DNA of 64,000 nt, taken from assembly GCA_008360955.1 (NCBI GenBank), contig LUCM01011216.1, positions 263,898 to 327,897 of the forward strand. Reading direction: 5' to 3'. The position numbers and the translations under genes were made by a program. This document shows, piece by piece, positions 5,437 through 61,810 of the stretch. Numbering within the stretch: the first letter of the stretch is position 1; every line of letters starts with the position of its first letter. The notes below the pieces were generated by a model. It was not told where the DNA came from, did not search any database, and was given only the letters and a program-made list of their open reading frames with translations. Origin of the DNA: Fasciolopsis buskii (taxonomy: Eukaryota > Platyhelminthes > Trematoda > Plagiorchiida > Fasciolidae).

Positions 5437-5932
5437 AGGACAACATGATGAGCATACTTAAACAAATGAAATGGGGAACTAGCTGACAAGTGGCTAATTA
5501 AACAAAGAAGAGAAACGCTGAAAGAAGAGCACTCTAAAGTCCGAATGTGTTATTAACGCGCGATATTGCAGTTTCACTGGACATTCGTGTGCACCGGGTT
5601 CGGTTAGTAAAGTAATCGGACAACCATGCTAATAAAGGCGCGGGGAAACCAAATGTCTTCAGTTTGCGAATTATAAGAGATCGTGAGAAGGAATCGAATT
5701 CCGATAAATAGTCTAGGAATGCGCAACGAACAGATTTCATCGATGCGTTTGAAGGACTCACAAATGTGATGAGTATGGAGGCGACAGCATCCATAGTGGG
5801 CCTGTTAGATTTATAGACAAACTGAAAAGGGTCGTCAGGAGGATACATAGAAGAACGCAGGCGCTTAAGTATAGCACTTCCCTTCAGTTTAAGACCAAAT
5901 GTTAAAGAGATGAGGCGAAAGCGTTTTGCCAA
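5437..5932 (-). pseudogene. CR1-like reverse transcriptase palm remnant
   Basis: An open frame from 5932 to 5534 reads DPFQFVYKSNRPTMDAVASI, then FLDYLSEFDSFSRSL (motif A, normally FxDxSxAFD) and FGFPAPLLAWLSDYFTNRT, the standard spacing of CR1-type palm blocks. After a stop near 5534 the relic continues. The motif C segment at about 5437-5459 reads KYAHHVVLYQA: the usual Asp-Asp pair of YADD is His-His (codons at 5445-5450), so catalysis would be lost even without the frame damage. The change could be read as gat gat becoming cat cat, which is odd because two equivalent substitutions are needed. Confidence 0.85.
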
Positions 5933-6401
5933 AGCAGTAGAACTGGTAGATTTTGGGATATGAATAATAGTGATGAGTCTTCAGTAGTCAGGTGTAGGAG
6001 ATGAGATTAATAATGAGTTAATCGGAGACGTGAGTGCATTCGCCAGAACCACAACATCATGTCTTGAAAGAGCTGAGGACAGGAAGTCAGGACCAATCCT
6101 TGTGGTTCTTTTAGTGGTGCGGAGAAGACCGAGCACCCTTATCCAGAAACACTTTTAATTGTCCTATCATCAACCTGTCCAAATATGACTGGGATATAAT
6201 TGGAAACATAGATGAAAGCAGGACTGATGTTGTCGACATCCGCAGCAAAATTTATCATGTTTCTTTATCTTCCCACGCAACAGTCAAATGCCTCTCCATA
6301 AGAATCGGTTGTTGTTACTAATCTGGAGTTGGCTAGCGAATGTAGTGTCGATGCGTTTGATTTCAGCTTTTATTACTTTGATAATACACCGCATGCTTTA
6401 T

Positions 6402-23940: not shown

Positions 23941-23968
23941 CATCTATCTATCTATCTATCTATCTATC

Positions 23969-24044
<76 letters not shown>

Positions 24045-24128
24045 TTATCTATCCATTTAGCTATCTGTTTGTCTATTTATCTATATCCTTTTTTTATCTA
24101 TCTGTCCATCTATCTATCTATCGATCTA
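23941..24128. repeat. TATC tetranucleotide microsatellite
   Basis: Near-perfect (ATCT) units from 23941 to about 24050 with one phase slip at about 23970, then a decayed tail to about 24128. The open frames through it reading YLSI repeats are by-products. Confidence 0.97.
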
Positions 24129-27048
24129 TCAGTATATTGATTAATCTCTCCGTCTATCAAAATAACTGCCTACCTCCTGATTGATAGCATTCAGAGTGGA
24201 CATTCTCAATAATATTTATCCCAACTTTGTAGGACTTAATTAGATCTTTATTAACAATGCCAACTAATTTTGCACTCGTTACCCCGGTGATAGCAAATGT
24301 GATTCATTCTTTTCTCGATACACCCTTTTCCCTTACTGGTAGGCCTTGCTGCGATGCTAGTCTAGAGGGTAATACCACAACATGTGGAATGAAAGTTTGC
24401 CCGTCCAATTCACCTCACATTCGATTAGGCAATCATTTAAAAACTTTTCAATTTTCTTGGCTTCGTTTCCAAAAAAATATTGCATATTTTTTGCACATAA
24501 TCGAATAGGTAGTTAGTACTATTGCCATTATCAGGATTATTCCATTAGAATCGTTAATCATGCCATGTTTCATCCGATTCCAACGGCCAACATGGAAGAA
24601 CTGCGAAATAAGTTGGGAAGACAAATGTACCCAAACCTTGTGCTGAATCTGTTTCCGACAGTTTTTAGTCTCGACAGAGAGTAAGAATGATGATCAAGAT
24701 ACTGATACACTGATGACGAAAACGACTAAAGGTCATTCAGTCATCATGTAGCTTTTGTTCGGTATTTCGATTATCGATCACTCTCTACAAATTCGTTCCA
24801 CCGACAGGTGAATAACAAGTCCCAAGAGATCGGCGATATGGATGACGAGCCCAGTTTACGCACAAAATGAATTAGTCCCCTTGTGTGTCTTGATCAGCAT
24901 AGTACAACCACGGGGTCTGGTTACACTTTGCGTCCAGATTCGGACCAATCCGGATGGCCGATGTACTGCTGTCTGTTAGGCTAATCCGTCGAAATATCGA
25001 TAGTCTATATGATGCACAAGGATTACAATAGTATACAAACGAATACATTGTACATATCCGGTACTTCACGGCGTTTGGGACGTTTAGATATAATCCATAC
25101 AGGTGACTTTTATCAGCCAAAAAACACGTTTCAATCGAAATGATTCTCATGGTATCGAACGTTTCCTCCAATCACTTAGAGAAATTGTGCAGTGTTTTGT
25201 TCATAACGGAAATGCATTTTTGCAACCTTGGTCTGACTTGAACATTTAGGAGATTTTTCCCCGACCAACCGTCATTTGTACTTTACGCTCCTTGTTTTAT
25301 ATAACCCAGTTTTCGACCAATTAGATGCAAGAAAACGGTCGTCCAATTTGCTCGAGTTTGTTCACCTTGTACGATCGAACGCATACCAGTGGCCTTGGTG
25401 ACATTTTCTGAAAAACTCGATAAAATCCCCGGTTTCACTAAGGTGTGCCGGTGATGCAAATACATGTTGATGTATTCATTTTTTCGACGCATTTTTCTAA
25501 TATTACTTGTTGTTGTGCATGTGGCTTCCGGGGATTATCGTCGAGCTGAAAAAATCACGCATTTTGACCATATTTCATTTTGGCAATCAAATATATACGT
25601 CGTTATTAAAGCGGGGAACATGATTTGACAGATTGTCGATCATTCTGTGCGAGTAAATGTCATTGTGATAGGGGAAAAATTGCCGGTTATAGATTGGTCT
25701 TTTTTCGATTTGCGTCATTGTTCTGACGAGCTAATCGATATCATATCTGCAAGCGATAGCTTTGTTTGATTCTTGTTTGATGACTATCGGTGGATTCCGG
25801 TTGATTCGGTGGTGAAACGAATTTTACTTGCTCGTATTCCGAGGCGCCGGATGAATCGTTTCAATGGGTTTCGAATATTGAACGATAAAAAAAGTCGTTC
25901 GATCTTTTTTCTCTGCCTTTTTTGACCAAATTATTTCTGTACAGCAGACCAAAAATCAATTCGTTCTTGCAGACAAAACAGTTCACACAGTTCAGATAGT
26001 GGTCTGACGTTTTCGTTCCAATCTAGACCTACGTCGGGTTGGTCGGCAAACGGAGTGTAATATGTGGAGGAAAATTCTCGCGGCCTCATGTAGAGTCATG
26101 CAGAAAGCTAAAACGTTTGTATTGACAATAAAAGCTTGAAGCTCCTATATGTACATCTTTCCAAGCCAGGTGAAGCTCAAAGAGCTGAAAGCCCAGGAAC
26201 GAACGGGAATTCATCAGCGCATAAAAAACTCCATTCAACTGAACTCTGATATCTTGTCAGTCTCTTGCTGTTCGGTTCCACAAATACTTAGCGGAGTGCT
26301 AGTCTTATTTTGACATATCTACAGAATGCTACGTGAAAATAGTTCATGGAGTGTGCAGAACCGAAGTTTCACTACTTGGATGCCTAACAATAAAACAGCT
26401 AAAAAGACAGAATGAAAAGAAAAAAGATCACTCGACGTTATCGCCAATATCCACAGGTTTTAACTTTCTATGGTACGAAAATTTCTTCAACCGGTCGCAT
26501 ATTTATGCTGTTCCGTTTCTGTACCTCTGCGCACGGAATCAGTTATATGCCCTACTCTGTCAGTTTATACGTAAACCGTAAATTGGCAATGAGTGCTCTT
26601 AGCAATCACCTCCAGTTGCATTATTCATACATTTTTATCCTCCTTCATTATTGTTTTATCAGGTAGCTTATTTTATCAAAATGTTGAATAATATTTGTTA
26701 CTGTTCCGCCATGATGCTTACATTAGGTTTCTTTTGTTCACACTAAATATTCACTCAAATTCGGTTGTATAACAAAGCACCTGTATTGTTGTGAATATTT
26801 GGTAAAACGTATAAAAGAAACGTTTTGGCAGGTGAACAACACTTATCGCTCAATAAGTTGTTCAGAGATGCATATGATTATCATGCCAGGTAAATAGTTT
26901 TTGTCATATATTCTCGGCATTTAAAAATTTGCTAATTCAGGCATACAAAACCTATTGCTAGTGAATTCCATTAGATATAGACAAGAACTGACTGGACGAA
27001 ATACAATCAGAGGCCAAAAGCAGTGACGTCACAAAAATTGTAATGTAA
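24129..27048. other. Unassigned sequence before the assembly gap
   Basis: Protein-like minus-strand frames occur at 24872-25171 and 25283-25492, but splice borders are ambiguous and no domain is recognisable. Nothing here reaches the level of a supported gene. Confidence 0.4.
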
Positions 27049-27955
27049 NNNNNNNNNNNNNNNNNNNNNNNNNNNNNNNNNNNNNNNNNNNNNNNNNNNN
27101 NNNNNNNNNNNNNNNNNNNNNNNNNNNNNNNNNNNNNNNNNNNNNNNNNNNNNNNNNNNNNNNNNNNNNNNNNNNNNNNNNNNNNNNNNNNNNNNNNNNN
27201 NNNNNNNNNNNNNNNNNNNNNNNNNNNNNNNNNNNNNNNNNNNNNNNNNNNNNNNNNNNNNNNNNNNNNNNNNNNNNNNNNNNNNNNNNNNNNNNNNNNN
27301 NNNNNNNNNNNNNNNNNNNNNNNNNNNNNNNNNNNNNNNNNNNNNNNNNNNNNNNNNNNNNNNNNNNNNNNNNNNNNNNNNNNNNNNNNNNNNNNNNNNN
27401 NNNNNNNNNNNNNNNNNNNNNNNNNNNNNNNNNNNNNNNNNNNNNNNNNNNNNNNNNNNNNNNNNNNNNNNNNNNNNNNNNNNNNNNNNNNNNNNNNNNN
27501 NNNNNNNNNNNNNNNNNNNNNNNNNNNNNNNNNNNNNNNNNNNNNNNNNNNNNNNNNNNNNNNNNNNNNNNNNNNNNNNNNNNNNNNNNNNNNNNNNNNN
27601 NNNNNNNNNNNNNNNNNNNNNNNNNNNNNNNNNNNNNNNNNNNNNNNNNNNNNNNNNNNNNNNNNNNNNNNNNNNNNNNNNNNNNNNNNNNNNNNNNNNN
27701 NNNNNNNNNNNNNNNNNNNNNNNNNNNNNNNNNNNNNNNNNNNNNNNNNNNNNNNNNNNNNNNNNNNNNNNNNNNNNNNNNNNNNNNNNNNNNNNNNNNN
27801 NNNNNNNNNNNNNNNNNNNNNNNNNNNNNNNNNNNNNNNNNNNNNNNNNNNNNNNNNNNNNNNNNNNNNNNNNNNNNNNNNNNNNNNNNNNNNNNNNNNN
27901 NNNNNNNNNNNNNNNNNNNNNNNNNNNNNNNNNNNNNNNNNNNNNNNNNNNNNNN
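27049..27955. other. Assembly gap (run of N)
   Basis: 907 undetermined bases. The frame that appears open across it is an artefact. Confidence 1.
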
Positions 27956-29864
27956 TTAGCGGGATCATCTTGTTCAACCCCACTTCTGGTCGGAAAATAT
28001 TACTTGCCCATAATAAGACCGAATTGTATTCTAAAGTAAACATTTCTGCTTGTAATATCCCTGTAACATAAAGGGTATGGTTAGTTACCCTGTCAAAAAT
28101 GTACTCGGCCGGACGCAATGTTCCTTAGCCCAAGATAAGGGCAAAGTTGGTATAGATTTACTATCAATCTTGGAATGACTGGGTGACAATACAATTAATG
28201 ACATTGACATCAATGCTACCATTGAGTTCATGCAAGTCACACTGAATATGGTCCCATCGGTAGAACGGGTGTGTACGGGGGGTATATTTCAAAGAAACCG
28301 ACTGTGCCATCCGCAGAAGCATTTGAATACTTTGGATCGGCCAATCGCACACAGACCACTCTCTCTCTCCCTCTCTCTCTCTTTCTCTAGAATGCTTTTG
28401 CACTGGAATTGTGTCATTTCATTTCACGTCTTCTGATTGGAAGTTTGATTCTATTTTGCTATTTAGCTTTACACTAAAAGCAGTGCATGATCATGTTAAA
28501 GCCGGTCTAAAGTAAGTAGAGTGTCCCCGGGTAACTATTTCTTACAAATCTTCGTTCATAGGAGAAATGAAAAAAACAATCCGAAAACAAAAGACTTGAC
28601 ACGGATTGAGGGGATTCAAATGCGCACGGACTATTTGAACAAGACTGCTAGTTGTACGTTGACAAGAGGAACTGTGACAATTTGTCATCTACATTTTAAA
28701 GTAAAGTAGAATAAGTCACTCATTTTGCTGAAATGTTCTGTCTTTCTAATCGCATCAAACAAAGTCGAATGAGAATTGGGTACCAGAAGCGAACAATCGA
28801 ATTTTCTCCGGAAAACCACAGCAGAGAACGAAAGAAAGCGGAACAAGATCGCATTCGTGATTTATAGTCGAACATTTTGTTGGACAAACTATTCGTGGTT
28901 TTTATTGGCTTCCTTCGATCATTCGTCTTCCCTCGAGGTTCACGATTCGCTAGGTGAGTACCAACAACCACGCCACAGATCAAAACCAGGCAACGTGTTT
29001 CTCTTCTTCTCGTTTGTTTGTCTCTGTTTTTGTGACGTAAAATAACCAACTGAGACAGAACATAACATGCAGCAGAAAACGTCAAGATGGTTGAATCAAT
29101 AGGATTTTCACCATAGAACTGAACTGCAAATGCAAAGAGGACTAGTCTTCTCGAATTTCAAAGTTTGTTTCAACGTCGCTGCAGATGTTACGAAACAAGC
29201 GATCTCAAAATGAGTGATCACTTTGTTTCACATCCCTAAGTTGATTATTTATTTTGTCCGAAAGCTAGAGATAGTCATAAGATTTTGGCAAATTGCAAAC
29301 ATTGTCTGCCGTTGACTGACTATGCGGCAGCGCGTAGACCTACGATTGACAAGCTGGCTCTGACGTATTAAGCTTTGATCGGATTCGGAAGATAGATAGT
29401 TGTCACTTGGGAATTGAAACCAGATAGGCAGCAGATGGGGTAGAAAAGATATTTAACTTTTTTCGCATTCAAAAGTAACGCAAAATTCTTGAATAAAATT
29501 GAAGACCGTTTGCTTACTAGTCGAATTATAGCGCTTGGTCACGAGGTGACGACATATGCCCGCAAAGTGTTAGGCGACTGGATATCGATATCGACCTTTG
29601 GGTTCGAATTTGGAATCAAAACAGGCTAATGGGTTTTCCGCGAACCACGTACGCATTTCTTGTTTGAAATTTCAAAAGGCATTATTCATCACGCCGCCTG
29701 ATGGCTCAAATGAGCAGTAAAACGGATAGAAACTAGCTGCAGCTGCATCGCCCTTCCCAGACCAGCAATAATCCAAAACTGGGTCACGAACAAGGGATGG
29801 ATGGTCGTGAACCAAAAGGCTTAGGTTGACCCTTAGCAGTTTAGCAAAATTTATCCCATGTCGC
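27956..29864. other. Unassigned sequence with a CT-rich run
   Basis: A CT-rich run lies at about 28359-28388. A GGGTTCGAATTT stretch near 29600 resembles a box B, but no box A or SINE body accompanies it. No gene is supported. Confidence 0.45.
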
Positions 29865-30040: not shown

Positions 30041-30356
30041 TAGAAAGATTCATTTGTTGGCCATTTGTACAGCAAATGACCTCTGGCCTCACGGTACGGA
30101 ACGGTGATGGCCACATCCGTAATCCGCTCGACTACAACGAAAACGTTCAAAAACTGATCCTCTAACTATTGAGTTCTAGTCGCAATCATTCCGACTTCGG
30201 CATGGAGACTGAATAATGCCAAGAATCCCTACCAAGCTGCATAGGACTGTTGTACAATAAACCTGTGATTTTTCACTGACAAGCTGTTAGTACTGCAAAA
30301 ACGATCAACTTTCTGTTGCATAAAAACCTCTTACCATTTAGGATATCTGGTTTTTA
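30041..30356. other. Short unassigned spacer
   Basis: This is the spacer between SINE copy D and the foldback repeat. Nothing is recognisable in it. Confidence 0.5.
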
Positions 30357-30432
30357 GTAGCAGGAGATTGAATGTTTTCATGAAATAATTCGCCATGTGA
30401 TATCATCGCTCAACTCACCATAAAGAAACCAT

Positions 30433-30493
30433 GGAAGCACTGTACAGCTGTTTCATCCAGCTTGTTAGGAATCATCAGCAGCAGTGCATATCC
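30433..30493 (-). ncRNA. Hammerhead ribozyme motif, copy 1 (slightly altered)
   Basis: On the minus strand, stem I is GCACTG (30487-30482) with CAGTGC (30442-30437), extended by GGA/TCC beyond an internal loop. The core has CTGATGA (30478-30472), a short stem II (TCC/GGA, loop TAACAAGCT) and GAAA (30454-30451). A tiny palindromic stem III (ACAGCTGT) is followed by A at the expected cleavage position. Relative to copy 2, an extra CTG lies between stem I and CTGATGA. All conserved core bases are present, but the inserted triplet and the weak stem II (T-T at its base) may impair activity. Confidence 0.65.
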
Positions 30494-30504
30494 ACCGCGC
30501 CCGA

Positions 30505-30580
30505 ACTGGGACGCGAACCCGAACAAGGACGAACGATTGTGAGTCGAACGCCTTAGCCATTACGCTACCGGGCAGGCTCT
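30505..30580 (-). other. tRNA-Val-like head of foldback repeat copy 1
   Basis: On the minus strand, box A-like TAGCGTAATGG is followed by an anticodon arm CGA-CTCACAA-TCG, whose seven-base loop has T at the position before a CAC anticodon (Val), then box B-like GGTTCGCGTCC. An extra segment sits before the T-arm and the acceptor ends do not pair well, so a functional tRNA is unlikely. Confidence 0.65.
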
Positions 30581-30774
30581 GAACGGTTTGTTGAACTTCA
30601 CCACATGATGTTGCACCTATCCGTCACTGATTTGCACGGCTGCTGTCCGCTGGCTCAAAGAAATCGACCCCTACTCATAGATGAATTCTCTGCATGAGGT
30701 GGCCTAAGTACGACCGAGGCTTTGGATATGATATCACATGGTGAATTATTTCACGAAAAAATGCAATCTCCTAC

Positions 30775-31554
30775 GAATAAAATGTATCTGGTTTTCTCGG
30801 AATGTGCTAAGCAAGGCAACAGAAATTTTGGGCACTATTACAAAAATTATATTCGTTTGCCTAATTCCAAACACAAGCATTTTTCACGTTCAATAATTCC
30901 ATATGAAAATTTGTATTGTTCAGAAACAGTAATGTTTTCGGAAGATAGCAGTTTGGTATTTTGGTAGACGGATAGTTCCATATAGCACATTACACGAAAT
31001 AACAATTTCCTCATTCAATCCATAAATCATTCAGATCTGATAATCGAGTGTTTCTGTCTTGTCGCATTCCGTCAAACTGATAATTTATCTTTAACCGAGC
31101 AAGTTCTTCGAATTATTCAGTTTTGCAAATGAGACAGAATAAAGAACTTTATGGCAAAGCAAACACTTAGTACTTTCTTGGTGTTCTGGTCTATAAGCTT
31201 GGATTTTGGTTCACAATCGTTTCGTCACCAGTCGAGGTGACATGGTCAGCACAACTGGCACCACGACTGGTGATGAAAAGTTTGCGATCTACACGCGAAG
31301 TTCAACGATCAGAGCCCCATGAAACTAAACGTCTGAGCCACGACCAACGGACGATAAGCATCATCACTCAGATGCTAGTAATCGTAATGCAGAAACATAC
31401 TGACTTGAAAACACCAGCGTAGTAATTCAGTCCTCTATCTCTCGGAAAGGTGTGTATTCCTCGAAGAGAAGGACAAACTTCGGTTACTATCTTCACCTGA
31501 AAAGAATACTAGCACGTCTGATGTTCTGCTGAGTTATGGTACAGAATTGACCCA
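30775..31554. other. Unassigned sequence
   Basis: No recognisable gene or repeat between the foldback element and the tRNA-like pair. Confidence 0.45.
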
Positions 31555-43040: not shown

Positions 43041-43135
43041 AACCACTACACCTGTTTCATCCACCTTGTCGGAATTGGGACACAAATCCGGGCCGAACGA
43101 TTGTGACCCGAACACCGTAGGCATTTGAGCCAACG
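43041..43135 (-). mobile_element. tRNA-headed hammerhead repeat, copy 3 (fragment)
   Basis: The minus strand matches the head of the foldback repeat: GGTCACAATCGTTCGG (same CAC-type loop), a box B-like GGATTTGTGTCCC, then AATTCCGACAAGGTGGATGA and AACAGGTGTAGTGG. The 5' half of the hammerhead (stem I strand and CTGATGA) is missing: sequence just after box B is joined to the stem II strand TTCC. The tail is not present beyond about 43041. It is a decayed or internally deleted copy. Confidence 0.65.
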
Positions 43136-45765
43136 GAAATGGTTCTCCATTTCTTGTCCAACTTCAGCCCCATCCTATGCTCCCTTTTTACGTGAATGAA
43201 CTTTACAGACCACAGACCTTCGCTGAGAAAATGGTCAACCTCCAAGTTGTGGTTGGTTCCTCTTTTGTAGGATTTCAGCAAAGTTATGGACAATCATACA
43301 CAGCATTAAGAGTTGACGGTTTTTAGTGATGGAGGGCTTAACACGACCTCCAAGCGGCTTGTTATGCAGCATCAGACTTTAGATTGGTCACATGATGGGA
43401 ACGATCTGTGGGTTGCATAACACGGGCTCCTAAGGATTCTATGTCATGAGGATTTGATGTATATTGGGATAGCCCAATAATAAAGAAACGAACTGATTGC
43501 CTGGCATGTGCCAATAAAGGATAGCTTCAAATCAGTCTTGACGATCACTTGTGCATACTTTCTCACGTAATCCGGATGTACAGTAAATAGCCTACCTAAA
43601 CTGTAGGTGTGCAGACAGTGCTGGTTCATGTGACCTGAATGGTTGACGTGAACCCAATAAGAGTTTCTATTGTAATTCCACTGTACATTTTTCAAACTCT
43701 CATCATTTTACGGCAACGCTTTCGTCCGAGGCTCAGACCAAACCGATCTTGGAAGGATCGGCAAGTTCCAGCACGTCTCCAAAACAACAGGATGGCTCAC
43801 TCAGTGTCACTGTATATAGGTATTTTTCTAAACTAATGCTATGTCAAGTTGGGCAAATAAGAATTCCTTTGAACCAGACATTTTTTTATTTGCATCTGTT
43901 ATGCCGACTGAGTAATCACTGCAGACTTTCACGATCAATGTCACAAAACGCTCAAAGTGTTTCCTCTCTGGAACTTATTCCTTTTCGTTTGTTGCACGCG
44001 AAACGGAATTAAATTCAATCCGACACCCCGTAATCGGCAATTCTATTCCTGCTCTCATTGTTTTATATTTCAGGCTGCCTGAATGTCCCATTTTCTTCCG
44101 CCTCAGTAGCTGCATTGACGAAAGAAAACGTAATTGCATCACAATTGAAATCTACGTGAGTGAAACCAAAGCAAACATCAAGTGCATAGAGGCGAAAGAT
44201 ACGTGCAACATTTGGACCACGCCTCCCGAATTTCCTTCAAATCTCTATATAATGTTAGTGATAGTAGTAATAATAGTATTAGTATTGGTAGTGGAAGTGG
44301 AATTGGTATTACCGTTTACTCTAACGACGTTTTTTAACAAGAAGGTTGAAATAGTTGCACAGGGACTCCATGGTTTATTGACGACTAGTTGGACGGAATT
44401 TTGGAAGAATGCAAATGGATCTTTTGGAGTTGTAAAATTTATTCAGAACACAATTCATTTGGTAGCAACAGAGCTCACCGTTAGAATTAAATTTAGGTTA
44501 AATTTAACATTCGAATACCAACGCATTTGGTACAACCATCAAAAGTTGATTTTCGGTCAGTGCTCCTTCATATCGCATCTTACTCCGCAACGTTGAACGA
44601 TTACACCTCGCGGACTGTTATGTTCAGCCACTTATGCATACAAACGGAATCTTCAAGCCAAAATTGGTCATCTCAAAAAATGGACGACCCAGCAGCAAAT
44701 TCGTGCAGATCGCTGAAATAGTCGATCTGGACGATGACATTGTAGGTGACACGAAGACCGGCCGGTCACGTGCTGTTCGATAAGGGTGTTTTGTTTTAGT
44801 TGATAAACCATTCTGTCTATTTTGGAATCGTACTAAGCTTGGCGTATTAGAAGCTCTACTGCTACAATGATCGTTACTGGCGTCTCTTTGATTTTGTTTA
44901 TTAGATTCACTCAGTACTGAAACCACAAAGAAGTACTCAATTCATTCATTAAATGAGTTCTCACAGAACCGGGAACTTCTAACACGTGTCATGTGCTGTG
45001 AACCATCGTTTCATTGACTATCAACTTTTTATCAAAATTCGTGTTTGTTTTTTTCGGTTCCAAGGTTGACTGAATAGTTGTTTTGACTGTTTCGAAATGC
45101 GTGGAATAGTAGTCGAAATAATTGCCTTTGGATGGTTGAACTTCCGGACTATTAGTACCGATTGCAGATAAGGCATGTGTTGTTTCCAAACACTCTATAT
45201 TGTTCTCGCATTGAAACCGTTTACTATTCTAAGAAATGTATTTTTACCAGCGCAACGCGTTGCTCAGTATACGTGCAGTTATATATGTTATTTTTTATCC
45301 AGTAGTGTTGTGGAATCTAAACTGTCTTTTGATTTTGGTTCACGGTAATTTTGGTATTTTGGCTGTCAAAATGATTGATAATGAGTAACTTGTCGAGAAG
45401 TTCCAATATGAGAACCACAAATACGAGGAGTGCATGCGAATAGATCCAATTTGTCCCTATGTCGTCGCAACCGTTGGACGAACGTTTTTCAACGATGCGA
45501 GAATTTCGGCCCCTTATAGTTCATGCATGGCGATTTTGTTTAATTGTGCTCATCCTTATCGCATTACAATCATGGTGAACCCAAAATTTCTGGTAACATT
45601 TTGATATATTGTATGGATTTTCAAATAAAGACGAGCTGCTTTATGAGATTTTGTAATCAAACCGAGAGGACGATTGCCCGCGTATAAAGTAAACGCCGAA
45701 ATATTTTCGACTATTTCATTTGGACTGCCTTATAGAGAAATGCACTACCGTATCCGGATATACAC
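43136..45765. other. Unassigned sequence with a triplet-rich run
   Basis: A region rich in (TAR/GTR) triplets at about 44255-44310 gives a false membrane-like segment (IVVIIVLVLVVEVELVL) in an open frame at 44156-44596. I see no gene. Confidence 0.4.
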
Positions 45766-58790: not shown

Positions 58791-59396
58791 ACAGATTGTA
58801 AAAACAGTAGAAAAAGCAGTTTGCTAGCTACCGGGGAACATTAAATTCGAATTCAGTCCACCAAATCGGAGGAGAACAAATATGGTGCACTAATGGTTTT
58901 GCGTACCAGACTCGAGACTCGTGATGTGATCAAGATGATTGATTCGGTAGCCAGTTTACGAGTGTCAACATGGGCACTCATTCATAACAAAACGTACGAT
59001 CATGTACTTTTAGCATTTGGTACATCCACAAAGCACTCGGTACCTTTATTTTGGAATTTAACAAAAAGAAAACAAATAAAGAAAGACGAAATATGTTGCT
59101 TGGCAATAAATATTCTTTACTTGGCATTCGAAAGCGGTTAATTCCTTTGTCAAAATAGAAAAATCAATTAACTGTCGACTGTATCCGACCACCACAAAAA
59201 TCTATTCACACAGTTGGTCGAATATGAAATACAATTCGCCCAAAGTTCGATGGACTTGCTTTATTGATTTTTTCAGTACACAGTAGTAGCTAGCCTAGCT
59301 TCCCGACAGTTGATCACTTAATTTGGAGATGAAAAAATAATTGATCCTAATGCACTCCAATAAATGTGTGCCCCAACAACAAGTCTGATACATGTC
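58791..59396. other. Unassigned sequence
   Basis: An 82-codon plus-strand frame at 58893-59141 has no recognisable domain. Confidence 0.4.
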
Positions 59397-59635
59397 AGTA
59401 GGAGGAGATTGAATGTTTTCATGATCTAATTCACCATGTGATATCATGATTCAACTCACCATTAAGAAACCATGGAAGCACTGTACAGCTGTTGGCGTCC
59501 CAATTCGGGCGCGGTGGATATGCACTGCTGATGATTCCTAACAAGGATGAAACAGCTGTACAGTGATTTCGTGGCTTCTTAATGGTAAGTTGAGCGATGA
59601 CATCACATGGTGAATTAGTTCATGAAAGTCTGGTA
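59397..59635. mobile_element. Hammerhead foldback repeat, copy 2 (head-to-head tails)
   Basis: The right part (59493-59635, plus strand) has a short remnant of the head (GGCGTCCCAATTCGGGCGCG), the hammerhead, and the tail (CATCACATGGTGAATTAGTT). The left part (59397-59492) is the same tail on the minus strand, starting at AACAGCTGTACAGTGC, which is stem III plus the 3' strand of stem I. The two tails form arms of about 80 bases around a spacer of about 60 bases. The inversion junction lies at the palindrome ACAGCTGT of stem III. The tRNA head is mostly missing. Confidence 0.75.
59523..59565 (+). ncRNA. Hammerhead ribozyme with intact conserved core
   Basis: Order on the plus strand: stem I strand CACTG (59523-59527), CTGATGA (59528-59534), stem II TCC (59536-59538) / GGA (59545-59547) with loop TAACAA, GAAA (59549-59552), minute stem III within the palindrome ACAGCTGT, then TA (59559-59560) and the other stem I strand CAGTG (59561-59565). 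Every conserved core base of a hammerhead is present, with cleavage predicted after A59560. This is a type I layout (open stem I, tiny closed stem III). Natural hammerheads with such a short stem III usually work as dimers, which the palindrome would allow. Stem II is weak (T-T at its base). Confidence 0.72.
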
Positions 59636-59891
59636 TAATCGTTCAGAATGGCAACATCCTTTGTAGACAGAAACAAAACAGCTGTTATTTTAATTGGAGA
59701 TTTAATGCACGGGCTATCATTTGGGTGAGTGATCATTTGAAAAGTCAAACGGAAGCGCTTTTCCTGTTTGTGTCCGAATCAAAAAGAATGCATGCAAATA
59801 TACAATCTTTGCGCGCACCTTTTGATTGGTTGAGCCAAAACTGGGGTTCATTCGTATTTTGATGTTTTCGTGCTGAATTTTTGGTTCCATT

Positions 59892-60690
59892 ATGGTATCC
59901 GTTCGCCGCTACAATCATCTAGAATTGTTGTTGCTTAAAAACCCTGTCGTTTCTCAACGTGGACCGAGATCACGCATCATTACACCCCAAAGATCTAATC
60001 AGTCCAGCAAAAGCACTCGTGCTGGCTGGCAGCTCTTAAATGCACCTCCTGCTAAGATATCCATTCCGGCATTGCTGAGTACCAACATCCACTCTCTGTT
60101 TACGAAAATGTCCGATCTGTCCCTCACACTTCAATCACCGATCCACGTTCACACGTGTGTCATCCGAATAAAAGAATCGTGGCTGAACCCGGATATCGCT
60201 GATTCACTCGTGTCGATAGACAGTTTCAGACTCCATCGGCAAGACAGAAGAAGACTGGAAGCAGTGTGGCAACATACATAAACTCCTACTGGTACGTCAA
60301 TTCCGAAGTTGTTTATACGTACTCGATAAACGAAATTGACTGTCTCGTGACACAGTGTCATCCTAGGTTTTCGCATCATACCAGCACAATCATAACCAAT
60401 TTATACATTCCCCCCTTTAGCTCGCAACACAATATTGCATCATTTCTCGACTCTTTTCTAGTATTTATTCTTCGTTTTCTTGAAGATAATCTGCATATCA
60501 TTGTAGGTGGTTTTAATCATGCATCTACCCTGCCAGTGACTGTTTTTTGACTTGACTGAGCTCTGCGGTTCCATTTTAGATAAAGTTATTACCAACCATC
60601 CCGATTTATTTTTCCTGAAATCGCGTGCTCCTACATCAAGTAGCGATCATTGTCTGCTTCTGTTAAGTCCCAAGATATATTCTAGATCAG
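59892..60690 (+). pseudogene. CR1-like endonuclease remnant, copy 2
   Basis: From about 60070 the frame reads LLSTNIHSLFTKMSDLSLTL, where the Asn begins the fold, then IKESWLNPDIADSLVSI with the catalytic Glu preserved. A frameshift follows near 60266-60281 (RRLEAV versus the expected RRGGGVATYINS). The next frame gives LDSFLVFILRF and VGGFNHA, where the usual GDFN has lost its Asp to Gly. After another shift, the frame from 60552 contains SSSDHCLLLL, the SDH end of the domain. With Asp replaced and two frameshifts, it cannot be active. Confidence 0.8.
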
Positions 60691-61810
60691 TTTTTCATTC
60701 CTTCAGGCGAACAAATCAAATCCGAGTTCGCCTCCGTAACCTTTCACACAACAACCGTACACTTCTTCAGAAATCCCTTTCACTCGCTTCTGGCTGCTTC
60801 TTCTTTGAACCCCTGCTCAAAGACAATGTCAAACTTTTCACAGAGATGGTCAAAGCAATCTATGATATCTGCTGCCCCTCAGAAACACTATTTATCTCAA
60901 ACGGATGTATCTCCTCCTAGAAACTGAAATTTCTAAGACACAAGGAGCACATCGTAATATTTTAAGCGTGCGGTTTGTTTCCAACCTAATAAAAGCTGAA
61001 ATTAAACGCATTGACACTAAATTCGCTAGCCAATTCCTGAGTGGTAACAAAAATCGATTCCTATGGCAAGGCATTCGACTGTTGTGTGGGAAGATAAAGA
61101 AAGATGCGAAAACTTTTGCGAATGTCGACGGCATCAGTCATTCTTTCATCCATTCTTCCAGTCATATTTGGACAGAGTGATGATATGACAGTTACATGAG
61201 TTTTCAGGAAAGTGGTGTTCGACCATCTGCGCACCGGTAAGATGACCACTGAGGTTTGTCCTGACAGTCCGTCCTCAGCTCTGTTAAGACAAGGTGTTGT
61301 GGCTCTGTGGGATGCACTCGCGTCTCTGAAAATCGCTTCAGTAATCTTTTCTTTCATCCCTGACTGCCGCTGACCCGTCACTATTATTTCCATCCCAAAA
61401 TCTACCAGTCCTACTGCTTAAGCAAATCGTTTTTGCCTCATCGCCTTAACATCTCCTGGTCTTAGATTGACGGACTGATGACCCACTTCAGTTTGCTTAT
61501 ACATCGAATAGGTCCACTTTGAACGCTATCGCCTCTCTCATACACCACATTTGTAAGTCTTTAAAAGCATTGATGAAATTAGTATTGCGCATTTCTGGGC
61601 TATTCATCTCAATTCATTTCGATCCCACGGTCTCTTCTATTGCACAAACTGCAAACATTTGGTTTCCCCAGTTTTCCATTAGCATGGCTGTCTGATTACT
61701 TCACTAATCGAACCCAGTGCACCTGAATGGGCGGTAAAACTACAATATTGTTGGTTAACAACTCATCCGTGCTTTAGAGCCTTCTCCTTGCACCGTATCT
61801 TCTCTCTGCT
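60690..61810 (+). pseudogene. CR1-like linker and reverse transcriptase remnant, copy 2
   Basis: QIRVRLRNLSHNNRTLLQKS is shared with copy 1, as are LIKAEIKRIDTKFASQFLSG (60980-61040) and the nucleotide sequence on to about 61800, which can be followed through IPKST near 61393 and the DYFTNRTQCT region (aligned, frame-broken) near 61690-61720. A block of about 45 bases before the YKSNRPT region is missing. The motif A region reads LFISIHFDP instead of FLDYLSEFD. There is no readable motif C. Confidence 0.75.

Follow-up and report, generated by a model that had tools for sequence, protein, structure and literature searches.

A tRNA-headed hammerhead SINE of the Sm-alpha/retrozyme kind with Penelope-type insertion scars in Fasciolopsis buskii

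The SINE-like elements Sm-alpha and Sj-alpha reportedly go back to Ferbeyre 1998 and Laha 2000. In Schistosoma they join a SINE-like form to a type I hammerhead and a tRNA-derived head, according to the sections consulted of PMC2770079 and PMC8490949. For animal retrozymes a replication cycle has been proposed, with Penelope-like elements (PLEs) named as a strong candidate helper from shared traits (PMC7229834, in the part consulted). Genomic PLE copies show an inverted pLTR, a 31-bp optional tail and duplications of 8-10 bp, and trans mobilisation is described (excerpts of PMC3846280). In vitro, the PLE protein of Anolis cuts and extends both target strands, and its cDNA begins at two adjacent internal sites that match a 30-40 bp 'tail'. 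The Anolis hammerhead cut (+26) and the main start (111-118 of the ORF) lie 85-92 nt apart, hammerhead mutants insert equally well, and the hammerhead cuts only in the presence of the protein (passages of PMC11167929).

Here we analyzed a stretch of 64,000 nucleotides from Fasciolopsis buskii (the window), in which an insertion at 59.4 kb belongs to a repeat family that we call family A. The repeat is a tRNA-headed hammerhead SINE of the Sm-alpha/retrozyme kind that bears PLE-type insertion scars; we do not assign it to Sm-alpha itself. Since it has no ORF, we do not call it a PLE, and its 404-nt unit is too short for the reverse transcriptase and GIY-YIG ORF of an autonomous one. The window also holds a LINE-type reverse transcriptase fragment (5534-5980, - strand; RVT_1, 31.4 bits), an (ATCT)n microsatellite of 47 copies (23942-24130) and an assembly gap (N run, ~27030-27960). 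Overlapping broken frames at 59877-60920 (+) adjoin the 59.4-kb copy and look LINE endonuclease-like by eye; a Pfam search of these frames gave no match.

The 59.4-kb copy carries a full-length type I hammerhead motif at 59522-59566 (+), with all core letters present. Read 5' to 3', it comprises the 5' strand of stem I (GCACTG, 59522-59527), the core CTGATGA (59528-59534), stem II with its loop (TTCC-TAACAA-GGAT, 59535-59548; TTCC at 59535-59538, loop II TAACAA at 59539-59544, GGAT at 59545-59548), the core GAA (59549-59551), the palindromic stem III ACAGCTGT (59552-59559), an A at the predicted cleavage site (59560) and the 3' strand of stem I (CAGTGA, 59561-59566). A CUGANGA...GAA core and three stems thus stand in type I order, and every element listed in an earlier note on this DNA was found. 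The hammerhead fold would place the cut after A59560. Stem I pairs at five of six positions (5 bp), and the closing pair of stem II that adjoins the core (10.1/11.1) is lost to U-U. This pair matters for hammerhead cleavage. Searching with a structure model, as the note had proposed, gave a full-length match to the Rfam type I model RF00163 (model 1-45, E 0.038 in a 1-kb search), though at 20.8 bits it falls under the gathering score of 34 bits; a scan of the 64-kb window at Rfam gathering thresholds therefore reported no match. MIR807 was also hit on both strands at 59429-59615 (45 and 43.9 bits; gathering 113), which we attribute to the inverted-repeat hairpin only.

Stem III is an 8-letter palindrome without a loop. 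A single molecule cannot fold it, and the palindrome is suited only to a dimer; the note had remarked that hammerheads with a short stem III tend to act as dimers. In the modeled minimum fold of the monomer, core letters pair with the palindrome. For the dimer, the double-hammerhead fold was computed at -24.9 (window copy), -39.9 (L032, a copy with G at 10.1) and -37.9 kcal/mol (young version), against minima of -30.0, -42.8 and -39.2 kcal/mol, respectively. A double-hammerhead dimer is therefore plausible in these models, 1.3 to 5.1 kcal/mol off the minimum in the three versions, without being the minimum itself.

The whole insertion is a composite of two arms joined head to head (59391-59625), a structure that the note had overlooked. 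Its left arm is an inverted 3' piece (59391-59493, - strand; unit 301-403, with a ~25-nt tail), and its right arm is a forward 5'-truncated piece that carries the hammerhead and no tail (59491-59625, + strand; unit 238 to ~377). The extent given previously, 59493-59635, covers the forward arm plus one direct repeat and misses the rest of the larger insertion. Putative target-site duplications of 10 letters flank the composite, AAGTCTGATA on the left (59381-59390) and AAGTCTGGTA on the right (59626-59635); they differ by one mismatch and score 7.5, below our threshold of 8, and the match of the forward arm enters the direct repeat, reaching 59627-59628. Because the forward arm is truncated from unit 238 at the inversion junction, this copy lacks the head, which agrees with the suggestion that most of it had been lost.

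A second copy at 30.4 kb has the same head-to-head build on the opposite strand. Its main arm (30355-30731, - strand; unit 28-401, match from 30352) retains both head and hammerhead, an inverted 3' piece adjoins its 5' end (30728-30784, + strand; unit 347-403), and an exact 11-letter target-site duplication, TATCTGGTTTT, stands on both flanks (30344-30354 and 30785-30795). The hammerhead (30437-30487, -) has an extra CTG before the core, which doubles this word (GCACTGCTGATGA), and its loop II reads TAACAAGCT. The tRNA-like head (30498-30573, -) scores 16.7 bits with RF00005, below the gathering score of 29, and ARAGORN found no tRNA. It contains box A-like (30557-30567, -) and box B-like (30509-30519, -) words, the latter one letter off the box B consensus, and its letters read as Val/Leu-like. 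The placement of the hammerhead in a tRNA-headed repeat family, with the 30.4-kb copy supplying the head, is supported. The terminal inverted repeats of the two window copies measure 77 nt and 55 nt, each at 87%. Two old, diverged fragments of family A lie at 43044-43262 (-; unit 66-315, nhmmer E 1.1e-6) and 44312-44395 (+; unit 263-346, nhmmer E 1e-4).

We then turned to the genome (703 Mb, 6,974 contigs). A search with 218 nt of the 30.4-kb copy gave 1,916 candidates, of which the best 40 were scored and yielded 45 matches; as the best candidates were taken, this sample represents the youngest copies. The family A unit is ~400 bp long (working unit 404 nt; GC 46%) and consists of a ~180-nt upstream part, the tRNA-like head, the hammerhead and a ~92-nt 3' part. 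Tandem neighbors are mostly spaced by 400-407 bp. The longest row we describe, at locus L061, holds five units at a 407-bp period; this array and the other 400-407-bp tandems fall within the retrozyme pattern of tandem 150-450 bp units with a type I hammerhead. Core letters are mutated in four of its five units (CTCATGATGATTCG, GATCAAAC), so the array grew from units with a broken ribozyme. Transposase-adapter-like letters, which we take to be Nextera, occur near position 1330 of L061, directly before the five units, and the size of the array is uncertain because such letters mark an assembly artefact.

Copies of family A are laid down in a consistent way. At 30 loci from the genome search (best 40 of 1,916), the 5' neighbor of the main copy was inverted in 20, on the same strand in five and absent in five, two of which abut assembly gaps. 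Among 63 clusters, counted after 12 had been set aside (nine with N, two duplicates, one at an edge), 32 were plainly '-...+' and no cluster was plainly '+...-'; a '+-' step also occurs in three complex clusters. Direct repeats with a score of at least 8 flank 26 of the 63 clusters, compared with 2.25% of 400 random flank pairs; a hand count of the simple '-+' clusters gave 15 of 22, a count in which the matched letters of L029 overlap the element and the repeat in some rows does not adjoin it. In the copies examined, direct repeats of some 10-16 letters stand on both sides of many composites. The 3' ends (n = 97; ends of local alignments, summed by hand) fall into two groups, with 41 at unit 370-389 and 45 at 399-404, four between and seven before, which places two end sites some 25 nt from each other in these copies. 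The unit boundary is crossed by 29 arms in 19 loci, counting L013/L034 and L009/L062, which overlap. The loci examined thus combine a head-to-head inverted copy, an optional tail and a short target-site duplication, as PLE-type insertions do.

These ends also bear on the template. In family A the predicted cut follows unit 310, and the more distant 3' end is at ~403, to be set beside the 85-92 nt of the Anolis element. A linear RNA cut at this site would, as a template, give cDNAs that run from ~403 and stop at 311. None of 102 cDNA segments starts within 9 nt of unit 311 (the nearest start at 301 and 329), 27 of the 102 beginning at unit 1 by construction of the linear query unit. RNA cut at the predicted site is therefore not an evident template, and uncut multimers or circles fit better.

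We further investigated the conservation of the hammerhead. The genome contains 1,494 + 1,475 = 2,969 matches to a degenerate core pattern and the reversed control none (0 + 0), an excess beyond chance. Among the first 100 pattern matches listed by contig, position 10.1 is T in 96, A in two, C in one and G in one, and position 11.1 is T in all 100. The pair adjoining the core is thus U-U in the majority of family A copies that bear the core, among them the 59.4-kb copy. The core had been described as intact; its nine letters are kept, but the description is too strong, since both this copy and 96 of the first 100 matches listed have U-U at 10.1/11.1. When 18 rows were selected by the Rfam model, G stood at 10.1 in 11 of them (opposite T in 10 and C in one). 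Core identity is 0.908 versus 0.917 elsewhere in 52 family A rows taken without a structure model, so that the core shows no extra conservation, and covariation in these rows does not exceed what chance would give (22, 132 and 31 of 500 shuffles). When 24 rows were picked by hand, two-sided changes appeared at 10 of 14 pairs, reached in 0 of 500 shuffles; as 16 of the 24 rows were model-selected, we give this result little weight. Rows left out numbered 12 with N before the 98-row set and six of 75 distinct rows in another set.

A second repeat family sheds light on the ancestry of this motif. Locus L031 scores 35.4 bits with RF00163, the sole one of 30 genome matches above the gathering score. 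In a search with it by overall DNA similarity, 40 of 208 candidates were scored, namely L031 and 39 further matches of 71-81% identity, and hammerheads were read in the 20 of 39 whose match covers the hammerhead. This family B is a second, older tRNA-headed family that carries the same core. Its majority sequence makes up a full hammerhead in which the 10.1/11.1 pair is G-C, stem III reads ACTCGAGT and the cleavage site is C. The consensus cores of families A and B are identical; across the 14 stem pairs, seven are the same, six have changed on both sides with pairing kept, and one, the 10.1/11.1 pair, is intact in B and broken in A. The stem covariation that the earlier note had asked about is accordingly seen between the families, at six of 14 pairs, and is not significant within either: in family B it is weak (75, 40, 41, 306 and 64 of 500 shuffles). 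Core identity within family B is 0.922 against 0.839 for the stems, one of 10 family B copies submitted reaches the Rfam gathering score, and the core with at least 12 of 14 pairs is retained by three of 20 copies in family B and by 22 of 52 in family A. Taken together, the comparison indicates that the ribozyme was once real. A further tRNA-headed hammerhead copy, L056, has stem III ACGCGAGT, which on reading is intermediate between the stem III of family B and the Rfam consensus palindrome.

The genome also contains PLEs that show the same head-to-head pairs as the repeat, together with hammerhead-like sequences. GIY-YIG matches number 142 at E up to 1, many of them below the family cut-off, and pairs within 2.5 kb, read from the table, are arranged '-+' in nine cases, '+-' in none and on the same strand in three. 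L068 has GIY-YIG above and RVT_1 just below the cut-off, and GIY-YIG was found in L071. For one PLE frame the nearest matches are unnamed metagenome proteins (48-51%), and the best named ones are proteins of flatworms (44-46%) and shark (43-44%). A hammerhead-like sequence occurs at eight places in seven PLE loci; by eye, CTGANGA is intact in three of these loci (L070, L081 and L083) and also in L067, with one extra letter after the core. PLE copies L068, L070, L080 and L083 enter (TA)n shortly past the hammerhead-like region, perhaps an insertion preference. A PLE with the 3' sequence of the repeat was not found in the 31 PLE loci examined, each a fragment of a few kb and none a whole element. 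L093 and L069, the only candidate partners by similarity to the last 110 nt of the repeat above shuffles, both turned out to carry inserted repeat copies, and a link between the ATG in the core and PLE start codons found no support.

We consider it probable that the 59.4-kb insertion is a non-autonomous, tRNA-headed hammerhead retroelement, SINE- or retrozyme-like, inserted by a PLE reverse transcriptase/endonuclease. We propose PLE-type copying because two end sites, head-to-head inversions, run-through of the unit and target duplications are published hallmarks of PLEs. Under this model the template would be a multimeric or circular RNA, and the PLE protein would nick both target strands and start cDNA at two internal sites. 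The ribozyme would once have cut multimers as a dimer through its palindromic stem III and would now be weak or dead in the most-amplified family. Given that no segment starts within 9 nt of unit 311 and that hammerhead mutants of the Anolis element insert equally well, insertion may not need the ribozyme, or the ribozyme may act before the template is made. A bolder idea, to which we assign a low probability, is that dimerisation rather than cutting is now the main task of the palindromic stem III, which would join two template RNAs in the double-hammerhead fold for a dimeric PLE protein, one RNA being primed per nicked target strand. If so, it would explain both the two-sided head-to-head composites and amplification despite the lost 10.1/11.1 pair.

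The two end sites also weigh on how far an ordinary tRNA SINE, mobilized by a LINE, with twin-priming products as inverted arms and the hammerhead as an inherited passenger, could account for the repeat. A tRNA-like head and direct repeats are usual for SINEs, the window holds the RVT_1 fragment at 5534-5980, and the 31 partial PLE loci offer no partner sequence. Twin priming inverts the 5' part of the same copy and leaves a 3' end at one flank only. Family A insertions instead carry a 3' end at each flank and a duplicated region, their arms continue beyond the unit boundary, and their ends fall at two sites, so that we find a LINE origin unlikely. The same inverted arms could be the termini of a MITE-like DNA element that captured a hammerhead SINE, as the long terminal inverted repeats of the window copies (77 and 55 nt, 87%) and the flanking direct repeats would allow. 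A MITE, however, should retain constant termini, and here the inverted arm varies in length between copies, starts at either of the two 3' sites and can break off at any internal point. Head-to-tail arrays are present as well, which leaves this origin very improbable.

A further alternative is an active animal retrozyme, whose multimers would cut themselves, an RNA ligase closing the products into circles that serve as templates. The ~400-bp unit, the tandem arrays, the type I hammerhead and cDNA past the unit boundary are all in line with it, and the cycle proposed in the consulted part of PMC7229834, with PLEs as strong candidate helpers, matches as well. Nevertheless, 96 of the first 100 copies listed have U-U at 10.1/11.1, the core is mutated in four of five units of one long array, and a multimeric linear RNA explains the boundary crossing equally; we regard an active retrozyme as possible, if doubtful. 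A last alternative is a chance motif, in which the palindrome and the ACAGTG word are part of the inverted repeat and the remainder is coincidence. The inverted arm does hold the same palindrome and neighboring word, the family A match is under the Rfam threshold and family A shows no internal covariation, but six compensated pairs link two families with an identical core, and one family B copy exceeds the threshold. Chance is the least credible of these explanations: the family comparison speaks against it for the ancestor, while for function today it may hold.

With insertion by a PLE as the preferred reading, the scars bear on the copying machinery of hammerhead-bearing SINEs and animal retrozymes, for which a PLE would be the copier. 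An old family with a paired stem II beside a young one with a broken pair lets one ask whether spread needs the ribozyme, and the small size of the element, ~400 nt, would suit work in vitro with purified PLE protein. In the titles and abstracts of the limited literature collection searched, we found no report of PLE-type insertion scars on a hammerhead SINE.

Among known systems, the W-element families of S. mansoni share type I hammerheads with very short stem III with family A; the parts of PMC8490949 consulted report some of these hammerheads as active in vitro and mention target duplications and internal inverted repeats, but they present satellite-like W-chromosome repeats, and two-ended head-to-head insertions are absent from the description in those parts. 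Sm-alpha and Sj-alpha resemble family A in SINE-like form, a tRNA-type head, type I hammerhead and high copy number, while the Sm-alpha head, in the text available, resembles tRNA-Gln-TTG and that of family A is Val/Leu-like. The stem letters of family A differ from the Rfam Hammerhead_1 consensus, the Rfam model being the means by which Sm-alpha was compared. With metazoan retrozymes, as portrayed in the sections consulted of Cervera and de la Pena 2020 (PMC7229834), it has in common tandem 150-450 bp units with a type I hammerhead and no LTR; it departs from them in its tRNA-like head, its mostly dispersed head-to-head composites, its broken 10.1/11.1 pair and its GC of 46%, against under 45% in a figure legend of that paper. 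From PLEs the repeat differs in its tRNA-like head, in the lack of a reverse transcriptase/endonuclease ORF and in having no sequence common to the 31 partial PLE loci examined. Yet it shares with them, as far as the excerpts describe PLEs, the inverted 5' partial copy, an optional tail of similar length, short target duplications, tandem arrangement and a hammerhead near the priming region. What is new is that the genomic scars themselves are PLE-like on a ~400-nt tRNA-headed hammerhead element.
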